From contig JALSME010000114.1 in NCBI GenBank assembly GCA_026987955.1, positions 1 to 34,691 of the forward strand: DNA of 34,691 nucleotides. Reading direction: 5' to 3'. Below the pieces are notes generated by a model. It was not told the origin of the DNA and ran no database searches. It saw nothing but the letters and a program-made list of their open reading frames with translations. The translations under genes and the position numbers were made by a program. Shown here in pieces: positions 5,640 to 17,194 of the stretch. Source of the DNA: Sulfurospirillum sp. GTDB taxonomy: Bacteria; Campylobacterota; Campylobacteria; Campylobacterales; Sulfurospirillaceae. Within the stretch, counting starts at the first letter, position 1, and each line of letters begins with the position of its first letter.

Positions 5640-8130
5640 AATATCCCCTTTTGATTAACTCATCTACTTCAACAAGTGGCAGTGGCTTACTAAAAAGATA
5701 GCCTTGCATTAGACTACACCCCTGTGCTGTGAGAAAACCTTTTTGCATATCTGTTTCTACCCCTTCAGCTAAAACTTTCATCAAAAGACCATTTCCAAGT
5801 GCGATAATAGTCTTTGCAATAGCTCTATCTTCAAAACTACCTTCAATATTTTTTACAAATGCTCTATCTATCTTTAGTTTTGTAACAGGAAGCTCTTTTA
5901 AGTATGCTAAAGATGAGTGTCCTGTTCCAAAATCATCTATAGAAACATCTATGCCCATCAGCCTTAATCTATTTAAAATAGATATAGATTTATCAAGATT
6001 TTTCATGATATATCGCTCAATCACTTCAACCTCTATCCACTCTGGCTTACATAAGTTTCTCTCAAGTGCATCTTTTATGTACTCTATTAGGTCACTATTG
6101 TCTAGCTGGTATGCCGCTACATTGACCGCTATCTTTTCTATATCATACCCTTTGGACTTCCACTGCACAATCTGTTTCATAGACTCATCTATAACCCACT
6201 TGCCTATATCTATGATAATACCACTCTCTTCAGCTAACGATATAAACTGATCTGGGAAGATTAAGCCCTTTGTTGGGTGATTCCATCTTATAAGAGCCTC
6301 TACACTCACTATTTTGCTGTCTATTGCATTCACAACTGGCTGATAATGCAAAACAAACTCTTGGTTCATGCAAGCTAAGCGAAGAGAGTCTTCCATCTTG
6401 ATTTTTGTTATAATCTCCTCATTCATCCTATTTGTAAAAAATCTATAAGCATCTCTTCCACCTGTTTTTGCTTGATACATCGCTATATCTGCATTTTTTA
6501 AAAGAGTGTTTGGATCTTCTCCATCAGTTGGATATATACTTACTCCAAGGCTCAATGTTGTGCTATAACTAGACTCTCCTATCAATATTGGTTTGTTTAT
6601 ATTCTTCTGTATGTTGTCTATTATTTTTATAATATCCCGTATATTTTTATAGTTTTCTACAACTACCACAAACTCATCTCCACCAAATCTTGCTGCCAAA
6701 TCTGACTCTCTTATAGAGCCCTGTAACCTTCTAGCAACCTCCTTTAGTATAATATCACCACTATCATGTCCCATTGTGTCATTTATAACTTTAAAGTTAT
6801 CAACATCTATAAAAAATATTGCTATTTCACGACCATCTCTTTTTGAAAGGCTAATGGCTTGATTTAGTCTATTAATAAGCATAATTCGATTAGGTAAATT
6901 TGTAAGATAGTCATGCTCAAGCTGATAAACAAGCTGCTCTTTTTGTGCCATAGTCTGCCTATGCTTAATTACTAAATGCTTCTGATAAGTTTTTAATATA
7001 CTCTGCAACTTATAAGATACTATAAGAGTGACTATAAGCATGATTGCTAGTACAAGTGCCGTAGCATAACTAATATTATCTACCACAGATTCTAGTTTTT
7101 CTTTTAAAGTTCTTCGTTTTTCTTTTATCTCTTTTAACAAATCATTATAGTAAGCTCCCGTTCCTATGACCCACCCAAGCTCTGGGACATCTTTTATAAA
7201 AGATGTTTTATACTCACTTTCTCCTAGCTCTTTATCGAAAGATGTGATATATGTCATAAAAAACCCTTCTGGCTGAACTCTTGCACCTTTTATTATGTTT
7301 TTTGCTATATACTCATTCTTAGTTGCTTTATTCCAAATATTTGTTCCTATCAACTTTTTATCACGGTTAGCTATTACCATCCCATCATAATCAAAAGCAA
7401 ATATATACCCTCTATCTTCATGCTTTATGTTCATAAGAAGTTTTTGCATCTTTGGTTTTATACTTGAGATTATGTCTTCTTCGTATCTTGCAGTCACTAT
7501 GTATATACCTAACTTTTTATAACCTTTTACATAACCAATTTTTTTCTTCATATCCAATGAGTCAGGTTTATACCAGTACCACTCATAGTAACCCTCATTA
7601 GAATTTTTCACAATTTTTATTGAATCTTTGATTGGGTATTGTCCTCTTGCATCTTTAAAATATAAAAGGTTTATATTTTCTTTTGAAGGCAAAGTTGGGA
7701 GCAACACACTATTACCTTTTATATCAAATATATCATAATACCCTGTTTTATTATCAAAAAATCGCACATCTCTAAAATGCTGTTTAACCAGCTCTATTAT
7801 CTTATCTTTTGGTAGATCTTTATTGTTTTTGTATATCAAATCAATCATATTTACAGCAAAAGTGGTCATGCTCTTTACTTCAACTCTTGCTTGTTTTTTT
7901 AAGATATCTGTAGTAGTAACAATATAATTAGAAATGTCCATGATCTTTTCATATGCACGAACTTTACTCTTTTTTACGATATCTTGCCTGACTTTTTCAA
8001 TATCTGCATCATAGATACTTTGTTCATAACTCAAAAAGATTTGAACCAAGGCAAATGATGTAATAGCAATGCCAAGAAGAGGTAATATAACTATTAACCT
8101 AGTAAGCTTCGTACTCTTTTTATCATCCAT
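5632..8130 (-). CDS. Cache-GGDEF-EAL c-di-GMP signalling protein
   Basis: An 832-residue membrane protein. Residues 12-34 form a first membrane helix, about 40-345 a large extracytoplasmic region with Cache-type segments (for example GYIFAFDYDGMVIANRD and ELGWVIGTGAYY), and 356-374 a second helix. The GGDEF domain follows, with GGDEF intact at 483-487 and an RxxD inhibitory site (RESD, 474-477). The EAL domain has EAL at 611-613, DDFGTG at 732-737 and AEGVET near 788-793. Both catalytic motifs look intact, so it may both make and degrade c-di-GMP in response to a small ligand. The stop overlaps the sdaA GTG start, hinting that the ligand might be an amino acid or organic acid; this is inference. 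Confidence 0.92.
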   Translation of the reverse strand: MDDKKSTKLTRLIVILPLLGIAITSFALVQIFLSYEQSIYDADIEKVRQDIVKKSKVRAYEKIMDISNYIVTTTDILKKQARVEVKSMTTFAVNMIDLIYKNNKDLPKDKIIELVKQHFRDVRFFDNKTGYYDIFDIKGNSVLLPTLPSKENINLLYFKDARGQYPIKDSIKIVKNSNEGYYEWYWYKPDSLDMKKKIGYVKGYKKLGIYIVTARYEEDIISSIKPKMQKLLMNIKHEDRGYIFAFDYDGMVIANRDKKLIGTNIWNKATKNEYIAKNIIKGARVQPEGFFMTYITSFDKELGESEYKTSFIKDVPELGWVIGTGAYYNDLLKEIKEKRRTLKEKLESVVDNISYATALVLAIMLIVTLIVSYKLQSILKTYQKHLVIKHRQTMAQKEQLVYQLEHDYLTNLPNRIMLINRLNQAISLSKRDGREIAIFFIDVDNFKVINDTMGHDSGDIILKEVARRLQGSIRESDLAARFGGDEFVVVVENYKNIRDIIKIIDNIQKNINKPILIGESSYSTTLSLGVSIYPTDGEDPNTLLKNADIAMYQAKTGGRDAYRFFTNRMNEEIITKIKMEDSLRLACMNQEFVLHYQPVVNAIDSKIVSVEALIRWNHPTKGLIFPDQFISLAEESGIIIDIGKWVIDESMKQIVQWKSKGYDIEKIAVNVAAYQLDNSDLIEYIKDALERNLCKPEWIEVEVIERYIMKNLDKSISILNRLRLMGIDVSIDDFGTGHSSLAYLKELPVTKLKIDRAFVKNIEGSFEDRAIAKTIIALGNGLLMKVLAEGVETDMQKGFLTAQGCSLMQGYLFSKPLPLVEVDELIKRGYCG

Positions 8131-11227: not shown

Positions 11228-11794
11228 ATGAAAACTATAGGAAAGATGATATTACTATCAACAGTAACAGCGAGTGTACTCTTCAGTGCAACTCCAGCGA
11301 CAACAACGGGTACAGGTGCAACAGCAGCAGCAGCAACTCCTCCAGCAACAACAACTGGCACAGCGGTAACTCCTGCGGTGGTAACAAATACAAATATACA
11401 GGTTTTATCTCAACAAATGAAACAAACTGCAGATCCCGCACAAAGAGCTGCTCTTATGAACCAAGTAAAAATGGGACTTGCTACTCTTAATGAAGAAGAA
11501 AGAGAGAATACTCTTGAAGGACTAAAACAAGAGATTGAACGAGAGCATGAAGGTGATCAAAAAGAGATGGAAAATGACGATAAGAATGACGATAAGAATG
11601 ATGACAAGAATGATGACAAGAATGATAATGGAAATTATAATGACAGCAGTCATGATGGCGACAGTGATGGTGGCGATGGCGATGGTGGAGACAGTGATGG
11701 TGGAGATAGTGATGGTGGCGACAGTGATGGTGGAGACAGCGATGGTGGAGACAGCGATGGTGGAGACAGCGATGGTGGAGACAGCGATGATTAA
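11228..11794 (+). CDS. Secreted acidic repeat protein
   Basis: A 188-residue protein with a signal peptide (MKTIGKMILLSTVTASVLFSA). A Thr/Ala/Pro-rich linker follows (22-55), then a predicted helical segment (56-105) and a strongly acidic tail. The tail has four NDDK units followed by about eight GGDSD units and no hydrophobic anchor. The DNA shows matching 12-bp repeats near 11575-11628 and 15-bp repeats from about 11650 to 11790. A tail this rich in Asp would bind Ca2+ or other divalent cations; this is inference. A good AAGGAG precedes the ATG. I do not recognise a named family. The lipoprotein start overlaps the last codons. Confidence 0.75.
   Translation: MKTIGKMILLSTVTASVLFSATPATTTGTGATAAAATPPATTTGTAVTPAVVTNTNIQVLSQQMKQTADPAQRAALMNQVKMGLATLNEEERENTLEGLKQEIEREHEGDQKEMENDDKNDDKNDDKNDDKNDNGNYNDSSHDGDSDGGDGDGGDSDGGDSDGGDSDGGDSDGGDSDGGDSDGGDSDD
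11575..11790 (+). repeat. In-frame 12-bp and 15-bp tandem repeats
   Basis: Near-identical 12-bp units (AATGACGATAAG variants) are followed by 15-bp units of the form GATGGTGGAGACAGC. All lie in the coding frame of the acidic protein and keep the frame, so copy-number change would alter tail length without frameshift. Confidence 0.85.
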
Positions 11795-14594: not shown

Positions 14595-15848
14595 TTAATA
14601 TCCATCCAGATGTTTTGTTCTTGGTAAAACAAGATTTAAAAAAATCCCAACAATTGCACCAAGACCAATTCCACTAAAACCAACTCCACCAAAGTTGAAG
14701 CTCATACCACCAATAGCAAAAACTAAGATAATAGAAACAATAATCATATTGCGAGGATCCTGAAGATCCACTTTTTCTTTTATAAGAGTTCCCATGCCAA
14801 TAGAAGCGATAATTCCAAAAAGAAGAAGCAAAATTCCACCCATTACAGGAACTGGAATAGTACTTAAAAGAGCCCCAAGCTTTCCTACAAAAGCCAAAGC
14901 AATCGCAAAAAGTGCCGCCCATGTCATAATAGCTGGATTAAAAGCTTTTGTAATTGTTACTGCACCTGTTACTTCAGAGTAAGTCGTGTTTGGTGGTCCA
15001 CCAAAAAGGGCAGCCGCACTAGTTGCAAGCCCATCTCCAAGGAGTGTGTTTTTAAGACCTGGCTTTTGCAAATAGTCTCTTTTTGTAACATTTGAGATGG
15101 CTAACATATCACCTATATGCTCAACTGCCGGAGCAATTGCAATGGGAAGTATATATATAATAGCTTCAAGGTTAAACTCAGGAGCTACAAACTTTGGCAT
15201 AGCAAACCAAGGAGCTGCCGCAACTGCATCAAAACTGACAATGCCAAACATCAAAGATACAACATAACCCACGATAATACCACAAAGTATTGGCAATAAT
15301 CTAAACACCCCTTTCCCTAAAAGTGTAGTTAAAAGTACAACCGTTAGAGTTATAAGTGAAATTGTAATAGCTACTGGAAACTCCACTAACACGACTGAGC
15401 CATCTCCTGTTTTTCCCATAGCCATAAAAACTGCTACAGGAGAAAGAATCAGACCAATAGTCATAATAACAGGTCCAACTACAACTGCTGGCAAAAGAGT
15501 ATGTAAAAACTCACTTCCTTTTACGCGTACCAAAAAGCTAAGTACAACATAAAAAAGTCCTGCTGCAAAAAGGCCACTCATAGTTCCTGCTACTCCCCAA
15601 GTTTGCACCCCATATATGATGGGAGCTATAAAAGCAAATGAAGAAGCCAAAAAGATTGGCGGAACTGCTTCTTTGTTAACAAGCTGAAATATAAGCGTAC
15701 CAATGCCCGCTGTAAACAACGCAACGCTAGGGTCAAGCCCCGTAAGAATTGGAACCAAAACAAGCGCACCAAACGCCACAAACAAAAACTGCAAACCAAC
15801 TATGCTATCTTTCAAGCTAAAGTTATACTCTGTACTACTGCTGTACAT
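14595..15848 (-). CDS. uraA: NCS2 uracil/xanthine permease
   Basis: A 417-residue NCS2 nucleobase transporter with about 14 membrane segments. Substrate-site residues are in PAVEHIGD (Glu and His) and the signature GGPPNTTYSEVTG. The pattern is closer to UraA-type uracil permeases than to purine permeases, so uracil is the likeliest substrate; the specificity is inferred. A strong AAGGAGG precedes the ATG. The upstream edge is unusual: the nested inverted-repeat element ends only 20 bases before the start codon, just ahead of the Shine-Dalgarno. Any promoter for this operon must therefore lie inside the element or further up in dxr. Confidence 0.85.
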   Translation of the reverse strand: MYSSSTEYNFSLKDSIVGLQFLFVAFGALVLVPILTGLDPSVALFTAGIGTLIFQLVNKEAVPPIFLASSFAFIAPIIYGVQTWGVAGTMSGLFAAGLFYVVLSFLVRVKGSEFLHTLLPAVVVGPVIMTIGLILSPVAVFMAMGKTGDGSVVLVEFPVAITISLITLTVVLLTTLLGKGVFRLLPILCGIIVGYVVSLMFGIVSFDAVAAAPWFAMPKFVAPEFNLEAIIYILPIAIAPAVEHIGDMLAISNVTKRDYLQKPGLKNTLLGDGLATSAAALFGGPPNTTYSEVTGAVTITKAFNPAIMTWAALFAIALAFVGKLGALLSTIPVPVMGGILLLLFGIIASIGMGTLIKEKVDLQDPRNMIIVSIILVFAIGGMSFNFGGVGFSGIGLGAIVGIFLNLVLPRTKHLDGY

Positions 15849-15868: not shown

Positions 15869-16143
15869 AATATAGCCATCCAAAAACAAACTAAGGCATA
15901 CTAGTAAGTCATAAGTGAGTGAGATGTGAAGTATCTATCTTGAAGCCTTTACTAGTAAAGGTGAGAGATAGATGCTTTGCAGATTGCTTACTTATGACTT
16001 ATCCAAAGGACGATAAGAGAAGCATACACTTGACTTCGTTAAAAGGTTTTAAAGCTACTAGTAGCTCTTGCAACCTTTTGCCTCGCAATTGCATACTTCT
16101 CTTATCGCTAGTATGCCTTAGTTTGTTCTTGGATGGCTATATT
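15869..16143 (+). repeat. Nested inverted-repeat element, possible structured RNA or MITE
   Basis: Outer arms 15869-15904 and 16108-16143 are 36-bp inverted repeats with one mismatch. Between them arm B (15905-16001) and arm C (16011-16107) each fold on themselves; both have 12-bp perfect basal stems (15905-15916/15990-16001 and 16011-16022/16096-16107). TCCAAAGGA (16002-16010) forms a mini stem between them. No base is left unpaired at the junction. Arm tips are the palindromes CCTTTACTAGTAAAGG (15946-15961) and AGCTACTAGTAGCT (16053-16066), both with core ACTAGT. The dxr stop codon lies inside the right outer arm. No transposase and no clear target duplication are seen. The name of the element, if it has one, is unknown to me. 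Confidence 0.85.
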
Positions 16144-17194
16144 TCCTAACTTCTCTATCTATCTCAAATATATCATCTAAACTTTTTGGATTTACATCTT
16201 CAAACTTTTTATATGCTTTTTTTGTAAATTCTGCAAGCTCTAGTATATTTAATTCATTTTTAAAAAACTTACCTATAGCTATCTCATTGGCTGCATTTAC
16301 GACAACTCCTCTTTGAGGATTTGCTAAAAGGCTATTTTTGATTTCCCATATGGGGTATCTTTCACTCTTTATCTCTCTAAAATCAAGAGACCCCACTTTG
16401 CATAAATCTATCGGTTTTACGATTCTAGTATCTACTTTTCTTAGAAGTGCATAAGCGATAGGCAGCTGCATATTGGCATCTGCTAGATGAGCTGTGCTAC
16501 TTCCATCTTTGAAGTCTATCATAGCGTGAATTACAGAACGAGTTTCCATGATAGCATCTACATTGTCTATATCAAAAAGCCACTTTGCCTCAAGCAGTTC
16601 AAAAAGCTTGTTGGTCATAGTTGCACTATCTATTGTGATTTTGTTTCCCATTGACCAGTTTGGATGCTTCAAGGCTTGTTTTGGAGTCTGTTTTGAAAGT
16701 TCGCTCAAAGGAGTATCTCTAAATGCCCCACCACTTGCCATGATAGTCATCTTGCTTATCTCTCGTCCACTTTGAAGATACCAAAGTCCAAAATGCTCAC
16801 TATCTATAGGTGTAATTTTAGAGCAATCTAAAAGATGCCCAGCAACTACCAAAGACTCTTTGTTCGCTAAGGCTAGTTTTTTGCCAAGTTCTAGTGTTTT
16901 TATAGTTGGTGCAAGCCCGACAAAACCTACAAGAGCATTTACTACCAAGTTCGAAGTTGAGCTTTCTATAACTTCTAGTATACCTTGTGTACCATAAAAT
17001 ACATTTGTATGCTCTACATGTAGAGCTAACTCTTTTGTTGCTACACATACAAACTTTGGCTGGTGTTTTGCTATCTGCTTGTTTAAAAGCTCTATGTTTG
17101 TGCCTGCAACTAAGGCCTCTACATGTAGAGCAAATTTATCGGCAATTTTGAGTGCATTTACACCAATTGACCCAGTTGATCCAAGTAGTACCAA
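16118..17194 (-). CDS. dxr: 1-deoxy-D-xylulose 5-phosphate reductoisomerase
   Basis: A 358-residue MEP-pathway enzyme making 2-C-methyl-D-erythritol 4-phosphate with NADPH. The N-terminal Rossmann motif LLGSTGSIG begins at residue 3, and LALANKESLVVAG, PIDSEHFGLW, ASGGAFRDTP, HPNWSMGNKITIDSATM and NAANEIAIG cover the NADPH, metal and substrate sites. The start is TTG directly after the cdsA TAA and in the same frame; nothing further upstream is open. The last eight codons (from YSHPRTN back to Lys) read into the nested inverted-repeat element, which supplies the stop codon. Two exact palindrome copies (17012-17025, 17117-17130) encode LHVE. Confidence 0.95.
   Translation of the reverse strand: MVLLGSTGSIGVNALKIADKFALHVEALVAGTNIELLNKQIAKHQPKFVCVATKELALHVEHTNVFYGTQGILEVIESSTSNLVVNALVGFVGLAPTIKTLELGKKLALANKESLVVAGHLLDCSKITPIDSEHFGLWYLQSGREISKMTIMASGGAFRDTPLSELSKQTPKQALKHPNWSMGNKITIDSATMTNKLFELLEAKWLFDIDNVDAIMETRSVIHAMIDFKDGSSTAHLADANMQLPIAYALLRKVDTRIVKPIDLCKVGSLDFREIKSERYPIWEIKNSLLANPQRGVVVNAANEIAIGKFFKNELNILELAEFTKKAYKKFEDVNPKSLDDIFEIDREVRKYSHPRTN

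Follow-up and report, generated by a model that had tools for sequence, protein, structure and literature searches.

REPINs are pairs of inverted hairpins, with each hairpin polar to one strand, and depend on a RAYT, a Y1 transposase. The bacterial MITEs designated Correia/NEMIS, ERIC and RUP have TA ends and form single hairpins, and the CIR repeats of Caulobacter and Brucella have two long inverted-repeat arms and a linker, with no outer stem (PMC2229807). The sequence described here, from a 34,691 bp stretch of Sulfurospirillum sp. DNA (hereafter, the window), is by anatomy a MITE. Like Correia/NEMIS, ERIC and RUP, it is short, non-coding and dispersed, with terminal inverted repeats, TA ends and a stable fold (PMC2229807) but, in place of their single long stem-loop, it has an outer stem that bears a 9-nt mini-hairpin between two ~97-nt arms and, unlike in those elements, one interior occurs with many different ends. 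When compared by anatomy, two long inverted-repeat arms joined through a linker are also present in CIR repeats, but CIRs lack both an outer stem and terminal repeats and their tip is GANTC (PMC2229807) whereas here there is an outer stem and the tip is ACTAGT. A link to IS5-family derived MITEs is suggested by one set of ends, designated type C (GGGCACCTCTAAAAACCC), that together with a 4-bp target duplication fit IS5-family elements of the same phylum; the interior is, however, common to subfamilies with other ends, and the ends of the window element are not type C. Two inverted hairpins, each strand-polar, are shared with REPINs, but REPINs are much shorter, lack terminal repeats of 32-36 nt and use a Y1 transposase, and the ends of RAYT genes are unmatched here. 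We found no description of these repeats from Campylobacterota in the open-access literature.

Anatomy and predicted fold of the element

The first-pass annotation of the window described 15869-16143 as a 275-bp element that folds as a four-helix junction with no unpaired bases. Read as RNA, this sequence is predicted to adopt the four-helix plan with a minimum free energy (MFE) of -142.5 kcal/mol, as compared with a mean of -60.9 kcal/mol (sd 4.7; z -17.5) for 200 dinucleotide shuffles, none of which was as low. Sequence and fold both reproduce the 36-nt outer inverted repeat with one mismatch (15869-15904 and 16108-16143), its exact abutment with the enclosed segments (15905-16001, 16002-16010 and 16011-16107), the mini stem TCC-AAA-GGA between the arms and the ACTAGT tip in both arms. 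The absence of unpaired bases holds at the junction but not inside the arms, both of which have internal loops and tip loops. Similarly, a 12-bp basal stem, attributed to both arms, is correct for arm 2 but the stem of arm 1 is longer and includes G.T pairs. The repeat does span 275 bp, but the element proper is the 267 bp between the TA dinucleotides (15873-16139; 32 + 97 + 9 + 97 + 32), the outermost AA/TT of the repeat being a chance extension as other copies share only TATA...TATA. The element is non-coding, and consists of the outer stem, two arms and the mini-hairpin (Table 1).

Table 1. Features of the element and flanking genes, in window positions
Feature	Position	Strand	Basis
TA target dinucleotide, left	15871-15872		Empty site in relatives; own flanks joined
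Left terminal inverted repeat / outer stem, 32 nt, TAGCCATCCAAAAACAAACTAAGGCATACTAG	15873-15904	+	Sequence and fold
Arm 1, 97 nt, ACTAGT tip; G.T wobbles on + strand	15905-16001	+	Fold and pair analysis
Mini-hairpin TCC-AAA-GGA	16002-16010	+	Position and size retained across nearly all subfamilies (CCC-NNN-GGG)
Arm 2, 97 nt, ACTAGT tip; conserved loop AGGC / AACGAA on - strand	16011-16107	-	Arm model R1
Right terminal inverted repeat / outer stem, 32 nt	16108-16139	-	Sequence and fold
TA target dinucleotide, right, within Tyr codon of former dxr C-terminus	16140-16141		Empty-site comparison
dxr (DXP reductoisomerase), last codons supplied by element	16118-17194	-	EVRKYSHPRTN in place of EVRKYCKN
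uraA-like permease	14595-15848	-	Start codon ~20 nt past element; directly after dxr in relatives

Two further features of the window are recorded here. The palindrome CTACATGTAG is highly iterated, with 8 occurrences (at 423, 1227, 9081, 17014, 17119, 24375, 31228 and 32475) where shuffles predict 0.03, and is also present at further loci of the same genome and in relatives. Between a two-component system and a phosphoesterase-like gene there is a 188-aa ORF (11228-11794) with an acidic DGGDSDGGDSD repeat tail.

Copies, empty sites and mobility

The element is mobile, dispersed in many copies and inserted precisely at TA. In the 143 contigs searched of its own genome there are three complete copies, 98-100% identical, and ~8 further pieces, most of which are truncated at contig ends, as would follow from repeats interrupting the assembly; elements of this kind are present in many environmental Campylobacterota. 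The window copy forms the 3' end of dxr, inside a co-directional dxr-uraA pair. In relatives, this site is empty and uraA directly follows dxr, as exemplified by a genome of the same genus (G003) in which dxr ends EVRKYCNG* and a uraA-like permease starts within ~20 nt. Joining the flanks of the window copy with one TA gives EVRKYCKN*, followed by a ribosome-binding site and the uraA start. A second copy interrupts a glycerate kinase gene, with the two halves at the end of contig C135 and the start of contig C28, paired on the basis of the gene halves and a 43-nt overlap inside the element. When these halves are joined with one TA, they form a full-length frame that matches PF02595 with 446 bits over profile positions 1-371 of 372. 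The TA at empty sites fits a target duplication, although a TA-ended element that inserted without duplication would look identical. Terminal inverted repeats of 32-36 nt are present, with compensatory changes at 17 of 32 pairs.

The element is thus short, non-coding, multi-copy and dispersed, as are MITEs in general. The first-pass annotation offered a MITE-like element or a structured RNA as explanations and, of these, the MITE-like reading is supported: near-identical copies are dispersed, empty sites exist, and both a target duplication and terminal repeats are present. A local rearrangement, which that annotation would have accepted given a single copy and no conserved pairing, is clearly excluded by the many copies and the strong conservation of pairs. 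A structured RNA in the sense of a free-standing regulator is not supported, given the unrelated insertion sites, and no Rfam 15 family was matched above its gathering score, the two far sub-threshold hits to miRNA models being due to chance.

A superfamily with a constant plan

The element belongs, as one subfamily, to a large MITE-like superfamily. Full-length relatives with 77-82% identity, in which the whole fold is retained, are present in another genus of the family, and the genome that carries the window also has subfamilies with the same plan but different sequences, designated A' (with TATACCCATCCTAAACC ends), B (AGTGCCTGACCACAATAAATG) and C (with the ends given above). A database scan, with one genome per GTDB species, for the 20-nt tip GGAGCTACTAGTAGCTTCAA identified at least 113 contigs; all of the matches listed are from Campylobacterota, mostly Sulfurimonas but with Arcobacter, Nitratifractor, Sulfuricurvum and unclassified Campylobacterales also among them. 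An arm covariance model has matches in 38 of 298 genomes of the class and in 16 of 58 genera, the copy numbers obtained being lower bounds as the best 13 candidates per genome were scored. Phage and plasmid collections contain no match to the element, and the tip sequence was absent from the viral contigs searched.

Most of the elements analysed are 266-280 bp in length. Among the 78 with an outer repeat that could be delimited, 75 have the outer stem, an arm of 96.5 +/- 1.8 nt, the 9-nt mini-hairpin and an arm of ~99 nt. The mini-hairpin is mostly C-C-C, three bases and G-G-G, with GAA/TTC, GTA/TAC or AAA/TTT as the most common central bases, and the plan is identical, in different letters, in GC-rich genomes (G039). 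Arms can be lost, as shown by partial deletion derivatives (L088, L089, L090 and L019) and by a bare 60-bp palindrome (L099; G015:C229:5747-5806) that consists of both A-type outer repeats alone, with the arms and mini-hairpin lost. At a separate locus (L321; G043:C31:4700-7200), a unit of ~800 bp, comprising a small element with GGGAACCTC ends together with a 124-aa ORF, recurs head-to-tail at exact 800-bp steps, with matches at seven steps. This is either a true tandem array or an assembly artefact.

Ends, target duplications and candidate transposases

Several end types, with different target duplications, occur on the one interior plan. Type C ends flank IS5-family transposases (PF01609 and PF05598) in two genomes (G043 and G044) and in a phage contig and, in a further genome (G212), they enclose a degenerate IS5-family transposase. 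The type C target duplication is 4 bp around TA, exact in 16 of 34 cases versus 4.1 expected. Type F elements have a 3-bp duplication (6 of 7; 2.9 expected), type D elements perhaps one of 5 bp (6 of 28; 1.6 expected) and types A, A', B and E have TA only. At the level of the class, there is good support for mobilisation in trans via the ends.

A transposase bounded by the ends of the window subfamily was not found. Its own genome has no match to PF01609 or PF13358, and no IS-sized pairs of A, B or D ends were detected. MAG assemblies lose multi-copy IS elements whereas closed genomes do not, and several closed genomes (G039, G179, G195 and G295 among them) have multiple elements each and no PF01609. 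For an IS630/Tc1-mariner partner, the TA target is appropriate, but the own genome is without PF13358 and, in relatives, the IS630-type genes examined have non-matching ends. The window subfamily does not classify as an IS5-derived MITE, given ends that differ from type C and a genome without PF01609. We also considered an autonomous parent with a gene between the arms; searching 100 loci with the arm model R1 returned only normal elements or two neighbouring ones. One of these loci (L104, 5862-6823) is a complete element and a half element that flank a small gene pair. That pair (5983-6757), located between the two separate superfamily elements, resembles nucleotidyltransferase and HEPN genes.

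Compensatory changes and strand polarity

The fold is maintained through compensatory change. In an alignment of 11 A elements, 99% of the cells are paired and 36 of 105 pairs have changed on both sides, as have 17 of the 32 pairs of the outer stem; there are 113 cells with double changes, compared with 36.2 after shuffling and 12 or fewer when the partners were slid. For 35 core arms, from different subfamilies, 92.6% of the cells are paired, 26 of 35 pairs have changed on both sides and 320 cells have double changes, compared with 106.5 after shuffling and at most 93 in the slid controls; both sets are of related sequences so that the shuffle counts are not probabilities, and the slid controls are the better guide.

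The two arms are mirrored. In most subfamilies, arm 1 has the internal loop AAGGC / AACGAA on the scanned strand and arm 2 has its reverse complement; in some subfamilies, including that of the window element, the loop of one arm is of another kind. Arm 2 of the window matches the model R1 with 84.6 bits on the - strand and 26.2 bits on the + strand and, in other genomes, 17 of 17 pairs of adjacent model matches, counted by eye, are ordered + then -. Mismatches in the basal stems have the same polarity. Read on one strand, G.T and A.C number 92 and 15, respectively, in arm 1 but 12 and 110 in arm 2. A set of 27 representatives, one per cluster below 80% identity, gives the same picture: for arm 1, G.T is more numerous than A.C in 21 of 27 and less numerous in 3 and, for arm 2, it is more numerous in 0 of 27 and less numerous in 22. 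This polarity is concentrated 12-17 bp from the arm base. The basal-stem polarity makes no use of the loops. Each arm thus seems to count as a folded strand on whichever strand has its 5' end towards the terminal repeat of that arm. Correction of palindromes could produce matched stems, but conserved loops and wobble zones should not survive it and, to judge from these sequence patterns, the interior therefore looks to be selected as a folded single strand of DNA or RNA.

Origin and possible function

The element is probably a non-autonomous, TA-inserting MITE moved in trans, and one subfamily of a Campylobacterota-wide group in which the interior is constant and the ends have been exchanged. 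A transposase supplied in trans would read the terminal repeats of the 267-bp element and insert it at TA. Type C ends and the target duplications point to mobilising enzymes of the DDE type, and the ends may have undergone many exchanges that fitted the elements to different transposases, an IS5-type enzyme among them, with the interior as the constant part. The interior presumably works as a folded single strand. We prefer folding of single-stranded DNA (ssDNA) during replication, given a design that suits either strand equally well and basal stems that tolerate little G.T. With the left arm folded on one strand and the right arm on its complement, the two ends would be brought together, and the element would thereby stay transposable whichever strand is exposed. 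A more specific proposal, for which we claim somewhat less than an even chance, is that the interior is a new selfish module in which mirrored strand-polar hairpins must fold single-stranded and which persists by swapping its terminal repeats, several transposase specificities then carrying one interior across a phylum.

The main rival to ssDNA folding, itself rather unlikely, is that the element, still a MITE, acts as RNA, the 5' arm of the transcribed strand folding to protect the host transcript by anti-termination, denial of access to Rho or stabilisation so that the host can tolerate an insertion whichever way it faces. Consistent with such an effect are the G.T (G.U) polarity, which always places the functional arm 5' on either strand, the location of the window copy within a co-directional gene pair and an MFE far under that of the shuffles, but G.T pairs are scarce in the outer stem and in the first 11 bp from each arm base, unlike in a freely wobbling RNA, some copies disrupt genes and no Rfam family corresponds. 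A role in regulating uraA, as a local structured RNA or attenuator, to which the position ~20 nt upstream of the start codon might point, is barely credible and, as the origin of the sequence, is refuted by the absence of the element from the same site in relatives and its presence at many unrelated sites; secondary effects on uraA are possible.

MITEs can originate by inverted duplication of a transposon end, and an architecture without function, in which such a duplication generated a palindrome with stems then kept matched by quasipalindrome correction, would account for arms that are mirror images and for double changes that outnumber single changes in the stems. This we consider improbable, as subfamilies that have diverged greatly and differ in their ends still share the mismatched loops (AAGGC / AACGAA), the wobble zone, the mini-hairpin and the overall length, all of which correction should erase. 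Some of the compensatory changes could result from palindrome-correcting template switching and not from selection, although such switching should erase the mismatched loops conserved here. Movement as folded ssDNA by a RAYT-type (Y1 HUH) transposase, as for REPINs, is slightly less probable again. It would be in keeping with mirrored strand-polar hairpins and with the Y1_Tnp genes, of which the own genome has 3 and which are present in 31 of the 45 genomes searched, but the RAYT genes are bounded by ends of the GGGGTCAGG type, unlike those of the element, three genomes (G042, G045 and G052) have elements without a Y1_Tnp match, and the 4-bp and 3-bp target duplications and IS5 ends indicate DDE enzymes for those subfamilies. 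The RAYT-like Y1 transposase genes catalogued (L267-L286), 1-5 per genome, have their own ends of the CCTGACCCC type.

The elements break MAG assemblies of this group and disrupt genes. Bacterial MITEs are usually regarded as deletion remnants with an irrelevant inside, whereas here the ends vary and the inside is constant. The fixed ~267-bp plan, conserved loops and opposite arm polarity provide a testable case for a selected MITE interior, which may turn out either to assist transposition as folded ssDNA or to act as an RNA that, irrespective of orientation, renders insertions harmless.
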